The notes below the pieces were generated by a model. The model was not told the DNA's origin. It was given only the letters and a program-made list of their open reading frames with translations, and did not search any database. The position numbers were made by a program, and so were the translations under genes. From positions 1 through 33,240 of the forward strand of contig JACQGM010000395.1 in the NCBI GenBank assembly GCA_016199585.1: a stretch of 33,240 nt of DNA, written 5' to 3'. This document shows, one piece after another, positions 1 to 16,314 of this stretch. The DNA comes from Armatimonadota bacterium. Lineage in GTDB: Bacteria > Armatimonadota > JAAZEB01. The stretch's first letter is position 1; each line of letters opens with the position of its first letter.

Positions 1-411
1 CACTAGCGCCGTGTATTCGCCGAGGGAGAGGCCGGCGTGGGAGTGTGGGGGTGTGGGGGTGTGGGGGTGTGGGGGTGTGGGTGTCAGGGCGACGTCCGGC
101 ACTCCACACTCCACACTCCACACTCCGCACTCCGCACTCCCGCACCCCCATACCCCCACACTCCCATACTCCCGACCAACGAGCGGCACAAGCGCCGCCA
201 CGCTGGCGGCGAGGATGGCCGGCTGGGCGACGCTGGTGCGAGTCAGCTCCGGCTCCGGTCCCTCGAAGCAGAGGCGCACCAGGTCAATACCGGCGGCCTC
301 GGCGGCGGCGTGCATCCATGCCTTCACCTCCGGGTACGCCTGGTAGAGGTCTCGGGCCATGCCGATCCGCTGCACGCCCTGACCGGGGAAGAGAAACGCT
401 ACTCTGCTCAT
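1..411 (-). CDS. fabD: Malonyl-CoA:ACP transacylase FabD, N-terminal part (runs off window start), containing in-frame repeat arrays
   Basis: Minus-strand translation from ATG at 411: MSRVAFLFPGQGVQRIGMARDLYQAYPEV...TRTSVAQPAILAASVAALVPLVG[...]PDVA[...]HAGLSLGEYTALV. FPGQG and GLSLGEY nucleophile-elbow motifs; overlaps fabH stop; fabH-fabD order conserved. Confidence 0.93.
   Translation of the reverse strand, partial: MSRVAFLFPGQGVQRIGMARDLYQAYPEVKAWMHAAAEAAGIDLVRLCFEGPEPELTRTSVAQPAILAASVAALVPLVGREYGSVGVWGCGSAECGVWSVECGVPDVALTPTPPHPHTPTPPHSHAGLSLGEYTALV
37..84. repeat. Array A1: ~6 copies of 8-mer GTGTGGGG inside fabD
   Basis: 43-50, 51-58, 59-66, 67-74 are identical GTGTGGGG, with partial units on both sides. 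Confidence 0.95.
100..173. repeat. Array A2: six 7-mers CACTCCN followed by four 8-mers NNACNCCC inside fabD
   Basis: CACTCCA x3, CACTCCG x2, CACTCCC, then GCACCCCC ATACCCCC ACACTCCC ATACTCCC; broadly complementary to A1. Confidence 0.95.
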
Positions 412-3204: not shown

Positions 3205-3210
3205 AGCAGC

Positions 3211-3245
3211 GATTTCAGATTTCAGGTTTCAGATTGCAGATTGCC
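3211..3245. repeat. Array B1: five 7-mers (GATTTCA GATTTCA GGTTTCA GATTGCA GATTGCC)
   Basis: Exact period of 7 read directly; complementary to B2. Confidence 0.93.
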
Positions 3246-3269
3246 AGAACGCCCTGACAGCCCCTCCGA

Positions 3270-3304
3270 CAATCTGCAATCCGAAATCGGAAATCTACAA
3301 TCCA
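3270..3304. repeat. Array B2: five 7-mers (CAATCTG CAATCCG AAATCGG AAATCTA CAATCCA)
   Basis: Exact period of 7; CAATCTGCAATC is the reverse complement of GATTGCAGATTG in B1; overlaps the ackA stop codon. Confidence 0.93.
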
Positions 3305-4509
3305 ATAGTGCCCGCGGTTTCGCGGGCGATGACAAGCTCCTCGTTCGTCGGGATGACGAACACGCGCACGCGGCAGCCGGGCGCCGTGATCTCTCGCTCG
3401 GCGGATCTCCGCGCGTTGAGCGAAGGATCCAGGCACACCCCCAGGAAGCCGAGGCTGCCGCAGACCTGCGCCCGCACTTCTGGGTCGTGCTCGCCGATCC
3501 CGCCGGTGAAGACAATCGCATCCACCCCGCTCATCGCGGCGGCGTACGCGCCAACATACTTTAGTATCCGATAGCAGAAGATATCAAACGCCAGGCGCGC
3601 GCGCTCGTCCCCGCTCTCCCGCCGGGCGTGGATGTCGCGCATGTCATTGCTGTAGCCGGACACCCCCAGCAGCCCGCTCTTCTTGTTCAGAATGCTCATC
3701 ACCGCGTCGGCTGACGCGCCGGTGCGCTCGGCGATGTAGGGCACGATCGCCGGGTCAATATCCCCGGAGCGCGTGCCCATCACCAGACCCTCGGCCGGGG
3801 TGAAGCCCATGCTGGTATCCACCGACACCCCGCCGCGCACCGCCGTCATGCTGCACCCGTTGCCGAGGTGGCAGGTGATCAGGCGCAGCGCCGCCGGGTC
3901 TTGCCCCTCGCGGCGCAGCAGATCGGCCGCCCGGCCGCTGACGTACTGGTGCGACGTGCCGTGGAATCCGTAGCGGCGGACGCCGTAGTCCTCATACCAA
4001 GAGTACGGCACCGCGTACAGGTACGCCGTGCGCGCCATCCGCTGGTGGAACGCCGTATCGAACACCGCCACCTGAGGCGTTCCGGGCATGAGAGACTGAC
4101 AGGCGCGGATCCCGACCAGATTCGGCGGGTTGTGGAGCGGCGCCAGGGGCACGCACTCCTCGATCGCCCCGATCACCTCGGCGTCAATCCGCGCCGCGCC
4201 GGAGAAACGCTCGCCGCCGTGAACCACGCGGTGCCCCACCGCGCCGATCTCCGGCAGCGCGGCGATCACGCCCTGCCGCGCGTCGGTGAGCAGCCGCGCC
4301 ACCTGCGCGAGCGCGACCGCGTGGTCCGGGAGCACCGAGGGGATCCGCGCCGGCTCGCGCCCGGCCGCCCGGTAGTCAATCGTCGCGTCCGCGCCGCCCC
4401 GCTCGCCGATCCGGTCGGCCGTGCCCCGGGCGCGCACCGATTCGTCAGCCATGTCAAAGAGCTGGAACTTCAGCGACGAGCTGCCCGAGTTCAGGACAAG
4501 AATCAGCAC
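3295..4509 (-). CDS. ackA: Acetate kinase
   Basis: MLILVLNSGSSSLKFQLFD, VGHRVVHGGERF, DTAFHQRM, GFHGTSHQYV, HLGNGCSMTAV, FTGGIGEH. Confidence 0.97.
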   Translation of the reverse strand: MLILVLNSGSSSLKFQLFDMADESVRARGTADRIGERGGADATIDYRAAGREPARIPSVLPDHAVALAQVARLLTDARQGVIAALPEIGAVGHRVVHGGERFSGAARIDAEVIGAIEECVPLAPLHNPPNLVGIRACQSLMPGTPQVAVFDTAFHQRMARTAYLYAVPYSWYEDYGVRRYGFHGTSHQYVSGRAADLLRREGQDPAALRLITCHLGNGCSMTAVRGGVSVDTSMGFTPAEGLVMGTRSGDIDPAIVPYIAERTGASADAVMSILNKKSGLLGVSGYSNDMRDIHARRESGDERARLAFDIFCYRILKYVGAYAAAMSGVDAIVFTGGIGEHDPEVRAQVCGSLGFLGVCLDPSLNARRSAEREITAPGCRVRVFVIPTNEELVIARETAGTIGL

Positions 4510-5091: not shown

Positions 5092-5571
5092 CTATCCTCT
5101 CGCGCGGCGCTCCAGGAGCCGGCGCAGCACAGGCTCTGGGACCCACCCGGAGACATCGCCGCCCAGCTCGGCCACCTGCTTCACCAGGCTCGAGCTGAGG
5201 AACGAGTAGGGGTGAGCGGTCATCATGAACACGGTCTCCACGTCTGAATTCAGCGTGCGATTGGCCTGCGCCATCTGGAACTCGAACTCGAAATCCGACA
5301 CGGCGCGCAGTCCCTTGACGATCACCTTCGCCCCCGCCGCGCGCGCGAACTCCACCAGCAGCCCCGGTATGCTGCCCACCGAGACGCCGGGCAGGTGCGC
5401 CGTGCTCTCCCGCAGCATCGCCAGCCGCTCCGCCAGGGCGAAGGTCGGCAGCTTCGATGGGTTCACCGCCGCCGCCACGACCAGCTCCGGGAAGATGCCG
5501 GCCGCGCGCTCGATGACGTCTAGATGTCCGTTCGTAACCGGGTCGAACGTTCCAGGATAGAGCGCCTTCAT
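5092..5571 (-). CDS. coaD: Phosphopantetheine adenylyltransferase (ORF is open upstream to 5670 through array C)
   Basis: [84 protein letters not shown]. Confidence 0.97.
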
Positions 5572-5579
5572 GGGAAGAG

Positions 5580-5628
5580 GAATTGAGAAGTGAAAATTGA
5601 AAAATGAAAAATGAAAATTGAGAAAGTG
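5580..5628. repeat. Array C1: seven 7-mers (GAATTGA GAAGTGA AAATTGA AAAATGA AAAATGA AAATTGA GAAAGTG)
   Basis: Exact period of 7; complementary in character to C2; AT-rich in a GC-rich genome. Confidence 0.95.
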
Positions 5629-5646
5629 CGCGTCCCCCTCTGAGGG

Positions 5647-5688
5647 CAATTTGCACTTTTCAATTTCCAATTCTCAGTTTTCAATCCC
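5647..5688. repeat. Array C2: six 7-mers (CAATTTG CACTTTT CAATTTC CAATTCT CAGTTTT CAATCCC)
   Basis: Exact period of 7; ends 14 bp from the stop codon of the four-helix-bundle gene. Confidence 0.95.
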
Positions 5689-5702
5689 TAACCCTCTTCT
5701 CC

Positions 5703-6077
5703 TCACTGCCCCTTCCTCCGAGCGACCGCGTTCTCTTTCGCTGTCACCACCGACCGCCCGATGATGTTGCACAACTGACAGCACTCGTCCAGCAGTCCCG
5801 CGACCTCCGCAGCCGGGAGCAACTCGGCCTTGACGATCAGCCGCAGCCACAACCGGGACTCGCGCAGCTCCTTCAGGCAGACGCCCAACTTGTGGACGAA
5901 GTCCGCCCGGCTCTCAGCCGCGCACGCTTCCTCGTAGTTCGGCGCCGGCGAGGTGGCACTGCGCACCAACTGGCCGGCAACGTGCCGGCCCAAACGCGTG
6001 TCCGGCAGACGATCCACGAGACGGCCCGCCTCCGCCGCAAACGCCAGCAGGCGATCCGAAAGCTCATCCGAGGTCAT
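5703..6077 (-). CDS. Stand-alone four-helix bundle protein (23S rRNA IVP / S23 family, Avd-like fold)
   Basis: 124 aa; GQLVRSATSPAPNYEEACAAESRADFVHKLGVCLKELRESRLWLRLIVKAELLP matches the typical QL.RSATSIAANY.EA..A.S..DF..KL.I..KE..E..YWL.L family signature. Confidence 0.92.
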   Translation of the reverse strand: MTSDELSDRLLAFAAEAGRLVDRLPDTRLGRHVAGQLVRSATSPAPNYEEACAAESRADFVHKLGVCLKELRESRLWLRLIVKAELLPAAEVAGLLDECCQLCNIIGRSVVTAKENAVARRKGQ

Positions 6078-6642
6078 CGTCCACCTCGTACACCGACAGA
6101 GCCGTGTCCCCGTACGTCCGCGCCTGCGTGCGCCGCAGCCGTCCGGACACCTCCGGGAGCGCCACGCGCTTCGAGTGCTGGATCGTCACCTGCGCGCCCG
6201 GAGCCAGCAGCCGCTGCGACCGCCCGAGTCTCTCTAACACCTTGCCGGGCGCCGCCGCGTCCTCATACGGCGGATCGGCGAAGACGAGGTCGAACTCCCG
6301 GCCTTCGCGCTCCAATGCCCCCGGGGCGGCCAGGGCATCCATCGCGCGCACCTCCGCGGCGCCGGCCGGCAGGTCCCCCAGTACCTTCAGATTCTCGCGG
6401 ACCACCGCCGCTCCCTGTCGGCTCCTCTCCACCAGGACGCACCGCGCCGCCCCCCGGCTCAGCGCCTCGATGCCGACCGCCCCCGTGCCCGCGTACAGAT
6501 CCAGGAAGTGAGCGCCGAGCACGCGCGCGCCCAACGCGCCGAACCAGCTCTCGCGCACGCGGTCGGCCGTGGGACGCACTCCCGGGCCGCGAAACGACTT
6601 GAGGACGCGCCCGCCCGCGCTGCCCGCGATGATCCGCACCAC
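6064..6642 (-). CDS. rsmD: 16S rRNA (guanine966-N2)-methyltransferase RsmD
   Basis: MVRIIAGSAGGRVLKSFRGPGVRPTADRVRESWFGALG, FLDLYAGTGAVGIEALSRGA, FDLVFADPPYE. Confidence 0.97.
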   Translation of the reverse strand: MVRIIAGSAGGRVLKSFRGPGVRPTADRVRESWFGALGARVLGAHFLDLYAGTGAVGIEALSRGAARCVLVERSRQGAAVVRENLKVLGDLPAGAAEVRAMDALAAPGALEREGREFDLVFADPPYEDAAAPGKVLERLGRSQRLLAPGAQVTIQHSKRVALPEVSGRLRRTQARTYGDTALSVYEVDDDLG

Positions 6643-9765: not shown

Positions 9766-12700
9766 GTGGATGGAGGTGTGTTCGTGGGGATACCGGCGCG
9801 CCGGGTGGCGGCGCTTCTCTATGGATCCGGGATGTGCGCCCTGATCTACCAGGTGGTCTGGCTGCGCGAGTTCCGACTCGTGTTCGGCGCATCCACGGCG
9901 GCCTCGGCGGCGGTGCTGGCGATCTTCATGGGAGGCCTGGGCGTGGGGGGGGCGGTCCTCGGGCGGCGGGCCGACCGTCATCCCCGGCCCCTCGCCTTCT
10001 ATGCCGGCCTGGAACTCCTGATCGCCGGGTCGGCGGCGGCCACGCCCTTCCTGGTGCAGGGTGTGGGCAGCCTCTACCACCTCCTCGGCGGCTCGCCCGC
10101 GCTCGGGCCGGCGCCGGCGGCCCTGGCGCGGCTGGCGCTCTCGGTGCTGGTGTTGGGGGCACCGACCTTCCTGATGGGCGGCACGCTCCCGGCCGCCGCG
10201 CGCGCCGTGGAGACGGATGAGGACGCGGGCCGGCGGCGCCTGGCGCTCCTCTACGGCGCCAATACGCTGGGGGCGGTCACCGGCGCGCTGCTCACCACCT
10301 TCTTCCTGCTGGGGATCTTCGGCGCCCGCCAGTCGCTCTGGATCGGCTGCCTCTGCAACGCGCTCGTCGCCGTGCTGGCGCGCGCGCTGGCGCGGAGCGA
10401 CACGGCCAAGCCCTCGGAGGCCGTGTCGCGGCCTGCCGCGCCCGCCGAGGAGACGCCCGCCGACGCCGGGCCGACGCCGGCGCCCGCCGGATACGTGCTC
10501 GCCGCTGCTGCCGCCACGGGGTTCGCCTTCTTCCTGATGGAGATGGTCTGGTACCGCATGCTCGGGCCGCTGCTCGGCGGCTCCACGTTCACCTTCGGGT
10601 TAATCCTCGCGGTGGTGCTCCTGGGCATCGGCCTGGGCGGTGTCGCCTGGGCGCTGGCCGGCCGGGGCGCGTCTCCCACTCCGGGGCTCTTCGCGCTCAC
10701 CCTGGGCATCGAGGCGCTGTGCATCGCCATCCCCTTCGCCCTCGGCGACCGGCTGGCGGTGCTGGCCGCACAGCTTCGCGCCCTGGGCTCCTTCGGCTTC
10801 GCGGGTGACGTCGCGGGCTGGGGCGTGGTGGCCGGTCTGACCACTTTCCCGGCGGCCTTCGTGGCGGGGATCCAGTTCCCGCTCCTCCTCGGGCTCCTGG
10901 GGAGGGGTCGTCGGGACGTGGGGCGGCAGACGGGCCTGGCGTACGCGTGGAATACCGCGGGGGCGATCGCCGGGTCGCTGGCGGGAGGCTTCGGGCTGCT
11001 GCCGCTGCTGAGCGCTCCGGGCACCTGGCGGGCGGTGGTGGCGCTCCTGGCGCTGATGGCGGTCGGCGCGCTCGTTCTCTCCGTGCGGCGGGAGGGCTGG
11101 CCGCGCACGGCGGGCGCGGCCGCGGGTGCCATCGGCCTGGCGCTGCTGCTCCTGGCGGCGGATGGACCAACGGCCGCCTGGCGCCACAGCCCGATCGGCG
11201 CGGGCCGCGTGGACCTCTTCCAGAGCACGCGCAACGACGTGCGCCGCTGGGCGCACGAGGCGCGGCGTGGCGTGACGTGGGAGGCGGAAGGGGTGGAGAG
11301 CAGCGTGGCCGTAGACACCGGCACCGGCCTCAGCTTCGTCATCAACGGGAAGGTGGACGGGCACGTGCAGACCGATGCGCCGACCCAGGTGATGCTCGGG
11401 CTGGTTGGCGCGGCGCTGCACCCGCGCCCCCGGCGCTCGCTGGTGGTGGGCCTTGGCACCGGGTGCAGCGCGGGTTGGCTGGCGCATGTGGCGGGCATGG
11501 ACCGCGTGGACGTGGTGGAGATGGAGCCGGCGATCCTGGAGGTGGCGCGGCGGTGCGCGCCCGTCAACCGCGACCCGCTGGCGAACCCGAAGGTGCGCGT
11601 CGTCATCGGGGACGCCCGCGAGGTGCTCCTCACCAGCCCTGAGCGGTACGACCTGATCGCCTCGGAGCCCTCGAACCCCTACCGCGCGGGCGTCGCCAGC
11701 CTCTACACCCGGGAGTTCTACCGCGGGGTGGCCTCCCGCCTGACAGAGGGGGGCCTCTTCCTCCAGTGGATCCAGGCCTACGAGGTGGACACCGAGACGG
11801 TGCGCACGATCTATGCCACCCTCGCGAGCGTCTTCCCGGTGGTGACGACCTGGCAGACCAACCCGGCCGACCTCCTCCTGGTCTGCTCGCGGGCGCCGGT
11901 GGCCTACCCGGTGCCGCTGCTGCGGGAACGCCTGCGCCAGGAGCCGTTCCGCTCGGCGCTGGCCCTGAGTTGGCGCGCCGCCGGCCTGGAGGGGTTTCTG
12001 GCGCACCATGCCGCGCGGCCCGAGTTCGCGAAGGTCGCCGCCGCGCCCGGCGAGGGCTCGCTGAGCACGGACGACCGCATGACGGTCGAGTACGGCTTCG
12101 CGCGGACCGTGGGGCGGCGGCAGGCGTTCACTATCGCCGACCTGCGCGGCGCGGCCCGCGCGATGGGGCTCCACCGGCCCGTTCTCACCGGCGGCTCGGT
12201 GGACTGGATGCGCGTCGAGGCCGCCTACGCCCTCATGTTCGCCCTGGATGAGTCCAACCTGCCGCGGCTCGAGGAGCTGCCGGCGGAGCAGCGCGCCTGC
12301 GGCGCCGTCGTGGCCGACTTCCGCCGCGAGCGTCACGCCACCGTGACGGCGGCCTGGCACCGAGGGGTGCTCCCCCCGGAGTCCCCGGCCGCGCGCAGCG
12401 CTGCCGCGTGGTCGCTGGCTGCCGCGGGCGACGCGGGCGCCCCTGAGGTCATCCGGAGACTGCGGGCCGACTCCCCCGCGGAGGCCGACCTGGCCCTCGC
12501 CCAGCTCCACGCGCGCCGGGGAGAGATGACAGCGGCGGCGGCGGCGCTGGTGGCCGCCTTCGAGCGCGCCCGCACCGACCCCTGGGTGCCCCAGTTGCTG
12601 CTGAGTAGGTCGCTGCGCCTGGCCGCCGCCCTCGGCGAGGGCGACCACTCGCTGGCGCCGCCCCTCTACCAGGCGGTGCGGCGTCCCTTCGTGGTGCGCC

Positions 12701-13320: not shown

Positions 13321-16314
13321 ATGGGATCTATCGCCGACGAACTGAGACAACGCATCCGGGGTGAGGTTCACTTCGACCGCCTCACCCGCAAGCTCTACAG
13401 CACCGACGCCAGCATCTACCGCATCGACCCGCTCGGCGTCGTCATCCCCCGCGACGAGGAAGACCTGGCGGCGGTCGCGACCCTTGCCGCACGCGAGCGG
13501 GTGCCCCTCCTTCCCCGCGCCGCCGGCACCAGCCTGGCCGGCCAGAGCGTGGGAAAGGCCCTGGCCCTTGACTGCTCGCGCTCCATGAACGCCATCCTCG
13601 AGTTCAACGCCGAGGAGCGCTGGGTGCGCGTGCAGCCGGGCGTGGTGCTCGACCGGCTCAACGCCTTCCTCCGTCCCCACGGCCTGATGTTCGGGCCGGA
13701 CGTGGCGACCAGCAACCGCGCCTGCATCGGGGGCATGATCGGCAACAACTCAGCCGGGGCGCGCTCGCGTGTCTACGGCATGACCGCCGACCACGTCCTG
13801 GAGCTGCGCGTGCTCCTGGGAGACGGCAGCGCCGCGACGCTCGGCTCGGCCGCGCCCGGGGCGGTGAAGCGCCGGGCCGCCGGGTCCGGCCTCGAGGCGA
13901 GCCTCTACCGTGAGATTCCCGCCCTGGTCTCTGCCCACCGCGAAGAGATCCGCCGCCGCTTCCCCGCGATCCAGCGCCGCGTCTCCGGCTACAGCCTGAA
14001 CCGGCTGGAATCCTCCCTGGCGGAGAGCGGGTCGCTGGACCTGGCGCAGCTCGTCTGCGGCTCCGAGGGCACGCTCGCCATCGTCACCGAGGCGAAGCTG
14101 AACCTGCTCCCCCGACCGCGCTGCGCCGCGCTCGGCGTCGTCGCCTTCAACGACCTGATCGCCGCGACCGAAGCGACGGTGGCCCTGCTGGCGACCGGCC
14201 CTGTCGCCATCGAGATGGTGGACCGGCTCATCCTCGAACTGGCGAAGGAGTCGCGCGAGTACTCCCGTGACTACCTCCCCGTCGCCGGCGACCCGGAGGC
14301 GCTCCTGCTGGTGGAATTCCACGGCGATACGGAGGCCGAGGTGGCCGGGAAGCTGGGTGGGCTGGAGGCGGCCGTGCGCCGCCAGTTCCCGTCCGCGCAG
14401 TTCGCCCGCGCCGCCGACGCGGCGGCCCAGGCCAATATCTGGAAGGTGCGCAAGGCGGGCGTCGGCCTGCTCCTCGGGATGAAGAGCGACCGCAAGCCGA
14501 TCGCCTTCGTCGAGGACACCGCCGTGCCTCCCGAGCACCTCCCCGAGTACGTGCGCCGCTTCCGGGAGATCGTCACCCGCCACGGCACCACCTCCGGCTA
14601 CTACGGGCACGCCAGCGTCGGCTGCCTCCACCTGCGCCCCCTGATCAACATCGGCAATCCCGACGACGTGGCGCGGATGAAGGCGATCGCTGCAGAGGTG
14701 GCCGACCTCGTGCAGGAGTTCGGCGGCGCGATGACCGGCGAGCACGGCGATGGCCTGGTGCGCTCCGGCTGGATCGAGAAACTCTACGGCCCGGAGCTGC
14801 TCCAGGCGTTCCGCGACGTGAAGCGCGCCTTCGATCCGCACGGCATCCTCAACCCGGGGAAGATCGTCGAGGCTCCCCCGATGGACGCGGATCTGCGCGC
14901 GCGCGACCTGCGCCCGCTGGATCTGCGCACGCACCTCAGCTTCGCGCGTGAGGGCGGCATCCTGCGCGCCGTGATGCAGTGCAGCGGCGTGGGGATCTGC
15001 CGCAAGCGCGAGGGGGTCATGTGCCCCTCCTTCATGGCGACCGGCGACGAGCGCCACTCCACCCGCGGCCGCGCCAACGCCCTGCGTGCGGTCCTCGATG
15101 GCGAGCTGCCCCCCGACGCCCTCGCCGGGGATGACCTCTACGAGGCGCTCGACCTCTGCCTCGCCTGCAAGGGCTGCCAGACCGAGTGCCCCTCCGCGGT
15201 GGACATGGCCCGCCTGAAGGTGGAGTACCTGGCGCAGCGTCATGCCCGCACCGGCACGCCCCTCCGGGCCACGGTGATGGGCCACATTGACGTCCTGAGC
15301 CGCTTCGGCTCCTTCGCGGCGCCCGTCGCCAACCCCCTCCTGCGCAGCCGCCCGGTCCGCCTGCTGGTGCAGGCCATCCTCGGCATTGATGCCCGCCGCA
15401 CGCTCCCCGAGTTCGCCGGGCGCACGCTGCTGCAGCGCCTGTCCTCAGCCAGCAGACAGCAGGAGGCAGGGGGTAGGAGGCAGGAGGCAGGATGCAGGAT
15501 GCAGGAGGTAGGCAGCAACGGATTACGCATTACGGATTACTCGTTACCGACTGCGGATCACGCATCACGCATCGCGCATCATAGATCACGAGTCGCTCTC
15601 TTCGTAGACACCTTCGTCAACCACAACTGCCCCGACGTGGGGGAGGCGGCCGTGGCGCTGCTGGAGGGGCTGGGCTGCGAGGTGGTGGTGCCCAAGCGGC
15701 CGTGCTGCGGGCGGGCGGCGCTCTCGCAGGGGCTGGTGGAGCGAGCGCGCTCCCTGGCGCGGGAGAACCTGGAGCGCCTCTGGCCCTACGCGGAGGTACG
15801 CATCCCGATTGTCGGCATCGAACCATCCTGCATCGCCACCCTCCGCGATGAGTACCGTGATCTGCTGGACGATCCGCGCGTGGAGAGGCTGGGGGAGCAG
15901 GTGTTCTTGCTCGAGGAGTTCTTGGTGCGCGAGGCGCGCGAAGGCCGCCTGGAGGGCTGCTTCCGGGCGCGTCCGGAGACCGCCTGGCTCCACGGTCACT
16001 GCCACCAGAAGGCGCTCACCGGCACGGGTCCGGCGTTGGCGGCGCTGCGCCTCATCCCGGAGCTGGAGGTGCGCGAGATCGACTCCGGGTGCTGTGGCAT
16101 GGCGGGGGCGTTCGGCTACGACCGAAAGCACTACGACGTCTCGATGGCGGTGGGCGAGGATCGGCTCTTCCCGGCGATCCGGGCGCTCCCCGAGGGGGCG
16201 CTGATCATCGCCGAGGGGATCTCCTGCCGCCAGCAGATCGAGCACGGCACCGGCCGGCGGGCCTATCACCTGGCGGAGGTGCTGCGCGATTCCTTGAAGG
16301 CGGGGAAGGAGTAG
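13321..16314 (+). CDS. FAD-binding and (Fe-S)-binding fused oxidoreductase (GlcD/GlcF, D-lactate dehydrogenase type) with in-frame repeat array
   Basis: LLPRAAGTSLAGQSVG, GPDVATSNRACIGGMIGNNSAGARS, TGEHGDGLVRS, LCLACKGCQTECPSAVDMARLK, GHCHQKAL, DSGCCGMAGAFGY. Confidence 0.95.
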   Translation: MGSIADELRQRIRGEVHFDRLTRKLYSTDASIYRIDPLGVVIPRDEEDLAAVATLAARERVPLLPRAAGTSLAGQSVGKALALDCSRSMNAILEFNAEERWVRVQPGVVLDRLNAFLRPHGLMFGPDVATSNRACIGGMIGNNSAGARSRVYGMTADHVLELRVLLGDGSAATLGSAAPGAVKRRAAGSGLEASLYREIPALVSAHREEIRRRFPAIQRRVSGYSLNRLESSLAESGSLDLAQLVCGSEGTLAIVTEAKLNLLPRPRCAALGVVAFNDLIAATEATVALLATGPVAIEMVDRLILELAKESREYSRDYLPVAGDPEALLLVEFHGDTEAEVAGKLGGLEAAVRRQFPSAQFARAADAAAQANIWKVRKAGVGLLLGMKSDRKPIAFVEDTAVPPEHLPEYVRRFREIVTRHGTTSGYYGHASVGCLHLRPLINIGNPDDVARMKAIAAEVADLVQEFGGAMTGEHGDGLVRSGWIEKLYGPELLQAFRDVKRAFDPHGILNPGKIVEAPPMDADLRARDLRPLDLRTHLSFAREGGILRAVMQCSGVGICRKREGVMCPSFMATGDERHSTRGRANALRAVLDGELPPDALAGDDLYEALDLCLACKGCQTECPSAVDMARLKVEYLAQRHARTGTPLRATVMGHIDVLSRFGSFAAPVANPLLRSRPVRLLVQAILGIDARRTLPEFAGRTLLQRLSSASRQQEAGGRRQEAGCRMQEVGSNGLRITDYSLPTADHASRIAHHRSRVALFVDTFVNHNCPDVGEAAVALLEGLGCEVVVPKRPCCGRAALSQGLVERARSLARENLERLWPYAEVRIPIVGIEPSCIATLRDEYRDLLDDPRVERLGEQVFLLEEFLVREAREGRLEGCFRARPETAWLHGHCHQKALTGTGPALAALRLIPELEVREIDSGCCGMAGAFGYDRKHYDVSMAVGEDRLFPAIRALPEGALIIAEGISCRQQIEHGTGRRAYHLAEVLRDSLKAGKE
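15460..15515. repeat. Array D1: eight 7-mers, consensus YAGGAKG
   Basis: CAGGAGG CAGGGGG TAGGAGG CAGGAGG CAGGATG CAGGATG CAGGAGG TAGGCAG. Confidence 0.95.
15520..15596. repeat. Array D2: eleven 7-mers, consensus GSATYAC
   Basis: GGATTAC GCATTAC GGATTAC TCGTTAC CGACTGC GGATCAC GCATCAC GCATCGC GCATCAT AGATCAC GAGTCGC. Confidence 0.95.

Follow-up and report, generated by a model that had tools for sequence, protein, structure and literature searches.

A four-helix-bundle gene with complementary heptamer arrays between rsmD and coaD of an Armatimonadota bacterium: a probable mobile element of the rRNA intervening-sequence type

The stretch of DNA analyzed here (the window, 33,240 nt from an Armatimonadota bacterium) probably carries, between rsmD and coaD, a mobile element of the intervening-sequence (IVS) type that was inserted in an operon and consists of a four-helix-bundle (FHB) protein and complementary arms of degenerate repeats. 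The order rsmD, FHB, coaD proposed by the initial annotation was recovered through separate profile matches for the three genes (table 1). The FHB ATG overlaps the 3′ end of rsmD by 14 bp, array C2 ends about 14 bp past the FHB stop, and array C1 ends 8 bp ahead of the coaD ATG. FHB is the only protein encoded by the element according to ORFs and profile searches, which distinguishes it from terminal-inverted-repeat transposons, as a transposase gene is absent.

Table 1. Genes and repeat arrays of the window
Feature	Position	Strand	Basis
FHB gene (four-helix-bundle; S23/IVP, TIGR02436/PF05635), stand-alone, 124 aa	5703..6077	-	profile and structure matches
rsmD, host gene upstream	6064..6642	-	TIGR00095, E 1.2e-42; 3′ end overlaps FHB start
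coaD, host gene downstream	5092..5571	-	TIGR01510, E 2.8e-56
Inserted segment between rsmD and coaD, ~490 bp	5572..6063	-	comparison with G001 and G002
Array C1, distal arm of heptad hairpin, pyrimidine-rich on coding strand	5580..5624	-	period-7 detection and folding
Array C2, proximal arm, purine-rich on coding strand, pairs with C1	5647..5688	-	folding
Array A, ORF-less hairpin; period-8 outer arms, period-7 CACTCCA inner block	37..173		period and folding
Array B, ORF-less heptad hairpin at ackA/DUF177 (yceD-like) junction	3206..3306		folding; comparison with G002
Array D, in-frame heptamer insertion in linker of FAD/FeS oxidase; hairpin-less	15446..15580	+	folding; comparison with G001 and G002

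The FHB protein of the window matched TIGR02436 (E 1e-20, 73.9 bits, cut-off 24) and PF05635 (E 6.5e-12, 46 bits, cut-off 33.8). Its AlphaFold model (pLDDT 97.5) was closest in Foldseek to 2RLD (TM 0.80) and 2GSC (~0.77), and more weakly to the Avd structures 4DWL and 8UB7 (~0.7), in agreement with the four-helix-bundle (S23/Avd-like) identity assigned earlier. Both 2RLD and 2GSC contain five chains, and a Xanthomonas campestris protein of the same family has been described as a homopentamer (PMC4990558). The protein had no match in PADLOC or PHROG, and a defense-system or phage gene was therefore discarded as its identity; the protein of locus L008 matches the PHROG family “Avd.” Seven pairs of FHB genes gave pN/pS values of 0.07–0.44, which shows that the protein is under purifying selection. 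In the bacterium's own genome (G000), locus L004 (contig C30, 892-1829) encodes a larger FHB of 289 aa with a C-terminal cysteine motif resembling a zinc ribbon, and its 9-mer arrays are located upstream and in its own 3′ coding part. In L007, L012, and L032, the FHB frame extends into the downstream array and produces repetitive C-termini.

In each of the two same-family relatives (G002, locus L115, and G001, locus L116), the rsmD stop and the coaD start overlap by 4 bp, which indicates that the FHB gene and the arrays of the window are an insertion. At the rsmD loci of the phylum outside the window, arrays were found in 0 of 29. Together with the overlap in the relatives, this means that the FHB gene and its hairpin are not ordinary members of the operon, and conservation of the FHB gene as an operon component was rejected. 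The segment of about 490 bp that holds the gene and the hairpin is thus an insertion, made in one event or in more as judged from three genomes. The initial annotation had proposed gene and arrays as one inserted unit and had named their conservation in place across the phylum as the opposite outcome; the insertion stands, and the two parts may have come in together.

Five period-7 arrays were called in the window by a lag-7 detector, which called none after block shuffling (10 shuffled windows), and degenerate head-to-tail 7-mers exceed chance expectation. C1 pairs with C2 in a single hairpin (−52.7 kcal/mol, z −6.5), and hairpins were also predicted for array B (z −8.0) and array A (z −6.1), the latter being mostly of period 8 with a period-7 block inside. 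Array D showed no fold (z 0.09); at its site, about 35 aa are absent in G001 and an unrelated linker is present in G002. Both arms of the window element lie 3′ of the gene and none upstream, unlike most FHB loci, and the inverted-repeat score of the sequences flanking the gene is 15. The window copy is, therefore, atypical in that it lacks the arm upstream and has its hairpin between the FHB gene and coaD.

The association of FHB genes with repeat arms extends widely across Bacteria. All four FHB genes of the own genome are located beside arrays, of period 7 in three cases and of period 9 in L004. In a set of 80 loci that spans more than twelve phyla, 65 arrays were found in the 71 kb lying up to 300 bp from FHB genes, against 82 in the remaining 1,124 kb of the same loci, that is, a 12.6-fold higher density. 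The respective densities in the window's phylum are 1.12/kb near FHB and 0.12/kb, with an array within 300 bp at 47 of the 74 FHB genes; many of the loci with no called array have shorter degenerate arms when inspected by eye. A comparison of flank complementarity, which is independent of array calling and is rated stronger than the array densities, showed inverted-complementary flanks at 114 of 146 FHB loci (78%) but at 19 of 795 other ORFs (2.4%; Fisher p ~1e-95); the corresponding figure for shuffled partners or distant pairs is 0.7%. The enrichment of heptamer arrays near other FHB genes, predicted by the initial annotation, was thus confirmed. Lag analysis of the FHB flanks gave peaks at 7, 14, 21, and 28, with lesser ones at 8 and 16. 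FHB genes are co-directional with both neighbors in 81% of cases versus 57% for other genes (p 1e-7; orientations of FHB and comparison genes alike called by heuristic amino-acid log-odds), indicating that transcription matters. The array density of FHB-bearing genomes (10 in 399 kb, 6 of the 10 in one region) against FHB-free genomes (4 in 545 kb) is only suggestive.

Orthologous sites were found both filled and empty. For instance, the sites of L182 and L186 are filled versus empty between G033 and G020, two species of one genus, the nuoC-nuoD junction is filled with FHB in rhizobia and empty in Sinorhizobium meliloti pSymB, and the site of L022 (G004), within a host gene, is empty in G043. 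In L022 (1240-2100), the host gene seems by eye to be of the methylase/restriction type, and its frame is uninterrupted across the two arms and the whole FHB gene, which is in another frame. The FHB gene occupies nuoC-nuoD in nine alphaproteobacterial loci (L037, L038, L040, L041, L043, L044, L047, L057, and L089; ~10001-10324). Among these nine elements, FHB identity does not track nuoD identity (rho −0.13, p 0.70). This suggests that elements were inserted or replaced repeatedly at a favored junction, with the reservation that rapid divergence could obscure such a signal. No clear target-site duplication was seen at the empty/filled pairs, whose flanks are too diverged for exact boundaries or a duplication to be fixed. 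The presence or absence at orthologous sites and the unrelated FHB copies at one junction point to mobility.

These distributions bear on a different explanation, in which FHB would be a resident autoregulated operon gene, a translational regulator binding arm RNA near its own start codon and those of others, with the arrays as operators and nothing mobile. The arm often ends shortly ahead of the FHB start, the protein is under purifying selection, and the TAACTGA heptamers of Beggiatoaceae lie mostly just 5′ of start codons (PMC4679880), all of which fit such a regulator. Nevertheless, it is unlikely, given the filled and empty orthologous junctions, the unrelated copies at a single junction, the FHB copy within a 23S rRNA gene (L170, below), and the location of the majority of arrays away from FHB genes.

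The two arms are matched within an element and differ between elements. In detail, the arms of the nuoC-nuoD elements have a median score of 44 within the element, compared with 20 for the same arm between elements. In two Capnocytophaga species with flanks about 87% identical, the arms differ and each pair is self-complementary. Similarly, the site downstream of fabF carries a TTTGATGG-type hairpin in G033 and an AAGTGGA-type hairpin in G020. Array B has a hairpin counterpart at the ackA/DUF177 junction of G002 (L220), so that the position is common to two genera, with different heptamers; the counterpart folds weakly (z −1.6). The two arms of an element evolve jointly, either by concerted change or by replacement of the pair. 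Mismatches between arms include 197 G.T and 185 A.C pairs, that is, no G.U bias; selection on pairing of the sense RNA was accordingly rejected, and the lack of preference argues that complementarity is kept by copying at the DNA level and not by selection for RNA pairing. The 5′ arm shows a G-rich strand polarity (36% G vs. 14% C). Periods 7 and 8 are hardly clustered on the FHB tree (12 changes against a mean of 14 after shuffling), and the FHB clade was rejected as the determinant of the period.

Relatives that lack the ORF are dispersed in the genomes. The octamer of L182 matches exactly at 11 places in G033, of which three belong to the element or its vicinity, versus one place in its sister G020, and the reversed control pattern has none in this comparison. 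Ten of the G033 places with the octamer were examined and are mostly ORF-less hairpins. The claim of gene-less derivatives is hence supported in general, but not for arrays A, B, and D specifically, which had been proposed as derivatives acted on in trans and are not tied to the window gene. In the own genome, seven arrays were counted in 204 kb of sampled contigs compared with four FHB genes in 5.4 Mb.

This excess of ORF-less arrays, the different repeats at one site downstream of fabF, and the position of the window FHB outside the C hairpin are what would be expected if the arrays came first, as slippage-prone intergenic heptamer hairpins arising by themselves, and FHB genes were brought by something else, landing in or beside them. 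Such an order of events is quite unlikely, since the FHB-empty sites (G020 C29, G033 C12, S. meliloti nuoC-nuoD, and G043) have no heptamer array, the 29 FHB-free rsmD loci are likewise array-less, and the arms are complementary across the gene at 78% of the loci.

Intervening sequences of 23S rRNA are excised by RNase III without ligation. A link to them is locus L170 (G003, of the window's phylum), in which an FHB gene is located inside a match to LSU (23S) rRNA, on the same strand and with heptad inverted arms; placed by eye, its flanks resemble the helix-45 site. The window element gave no rRNA match and is located between rsmD and coaD; it shares the S23/IVP ORF with the IVSs of 23S rRNA but differs in its position outside rRNA and in arms that do not flank the gene. 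The Coxiella 23S IVS carries an S23 ORF together with a terminal inverted repeat of 28 bp, is excised by RNase III, and contains tandem GACAGAT heptamers of strain-dependent copy number; its function and origin were termed unclear by the authors (PMC4990558). The IVSs with S23/IVP ORFs of Coxiella and Leptospira (PMC4990558) have in common with FHB elements the protein family, the complementary termini, a size of ~430–550 nt, and a sporadic distribution, and the heptamers of Coxiella are upstream of the ORF, as in FHB elements. On the other hand, the window element and nearly all loci studied are outside rRNA, mostly in operons, and FHB elements have arms that are extended heptad arrays and have dispersed ORF-less relatives. 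The operon copies look like an IVS-kind element outside rRNA.

Profile searches found no RVT_1 in the FHB-bearing genomes G022 (one contig), G020, G033, and G017, and neither RVT_1 nor Y1_Tnp in G054, which carries FHB and long octamer arrays; Y1_Tnp is also absent from other FHB-bearing genomes. In G000, the only RVT_1 match is a partial one on a different contig (C132), and the two Y1 genes are both on other contigs. As FHB-bearing genomes lack them, neither enzyme is obligatory, and a reverse transcriptase (RT) as a necessary partner was rejected. It is very improbable that FHB acts, as Avd, as an accessory to an RT or a Y1/RAYT transposase encoded elsewhere that copies the hairpins in trans, since these five genomes lack RVT_1, and G054 also Y1_Tnp, despite the fold likeness to Avd (TM ~0.7), the PHROG “Avd” match of L008, the G-rich polarity of the 5′ arm, and the dispersed ORF-less copies. 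FHB shares its four-helix-bundle fold with the Avd of diversity-generating retroelements (4DWL, 8UB7), but no RT accompanies the element, the initial annotation saw no TR/VR pair in the window, and several FHB-bearing genomes have no RT.

With regard to the mobile, IVS-type reading of the window, the element has two defining parts, an FHB (S23/IVP) protein of a pentamer-forming family and a pair of complementary arms, the arms being degenerate tandem repeats of 7 nt or, sometimes, 8, 9, or 12 nt. In most copies the arms surround the gene, so that the transcript would fold into a long hairpin whose loop holds the ORF; hairpins without an ORF would be the non-autonomous relatives, and the intervening sequences of rRNA would be members that landed in 23S rRNA. 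The elements are inserted mainly between genes of one direction, a setting in which the transcript may tolerate the hairpin, and processing of the RNase III type could make the insertion tolerable. The FHB pentamer, with a fold shared with Avd, may bind the nucleic acid of the arms and promote mobility and/or arm copying, with catalysis presumably provided by host replication, repair, or RNA-processing enzymes. Points that weigh against this reading are the missing gene-flanking arms of the window copy, the absent G.U bias, the failure to see a clear target-site duplication, the poor fit of periods 7 and 8 to the FHB tree, and the weak difference in array density between FHB-bearing and FHB-free genomes. 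Tentatively, FHB elements might form a bacteria-wide mobile class without a known catalytic gene, which would propagate as hairpins of inverted heptamer arrays, set or overwrite the repeats of both arms at once, and seed in trans the dispersed heptanucleotide repeats that were first described decades ago, with the rRNA IVSs as one special case.

Other repeats are comparable in part. In REPIN/RAYT systems and MITE-type palindromic repeats, a gene of low copy number is accompanied by hairpins scattered in trans; FHB elements differ in that a Y1 transposase is not required and the repeat sequence is element-specific. Rickettsia palindromic elements are hairpin repeats inserted in frame within genes, and array D and L022 resemble them in their in-frame position inside a gene; to our knowledge, they have neither an FHB gene nor heptad arrays. 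Cyanobacterial STRRs are one group of comparable heptanucleotide repeats. The heptanucleotide repeats of cyanobacteria, Bacteroidetes, and Beggiatoaceae (TAACTGA; PMC4679880) are, like FHB arrays, tandem degenerate heptamers, mostly intergenic and sporadic across phyla, and no agent of their spread is known; the inverted-arm architecture distinguishes FHB elements from them. No link between these repeats and FHB genes was found in open-access papers, and an earlier description elsewhere is possible. The results suggest that the unexplained heptamer repeats of bacteria and the ribosomal “intervening sequences” belong to one mobile-element family. Three loose ends, namely, the rRNA IVSs, the heptanucleotide repeats, and the “four helix bundle protein” genes with no assigned role, are thereby joined into one testable system with one protein family, one repeat architecture, and many hosts, cultured cyanobacteria and rhizobia among them.

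Repeat units vary among individual elements. The arms of L017 (G057) consist of 12-mers, other elements, among them those of L008 (G034) and L016 (G054), have 8-mers, and arrays longer than 100 bp occur. In L061 (9923-10340), from a member of Phycisphaerae, the arms ATCAGTT/AACTGAC directly flank the FHB gene and resemble the TAACTGA heptamer of Beggiatoaceae.
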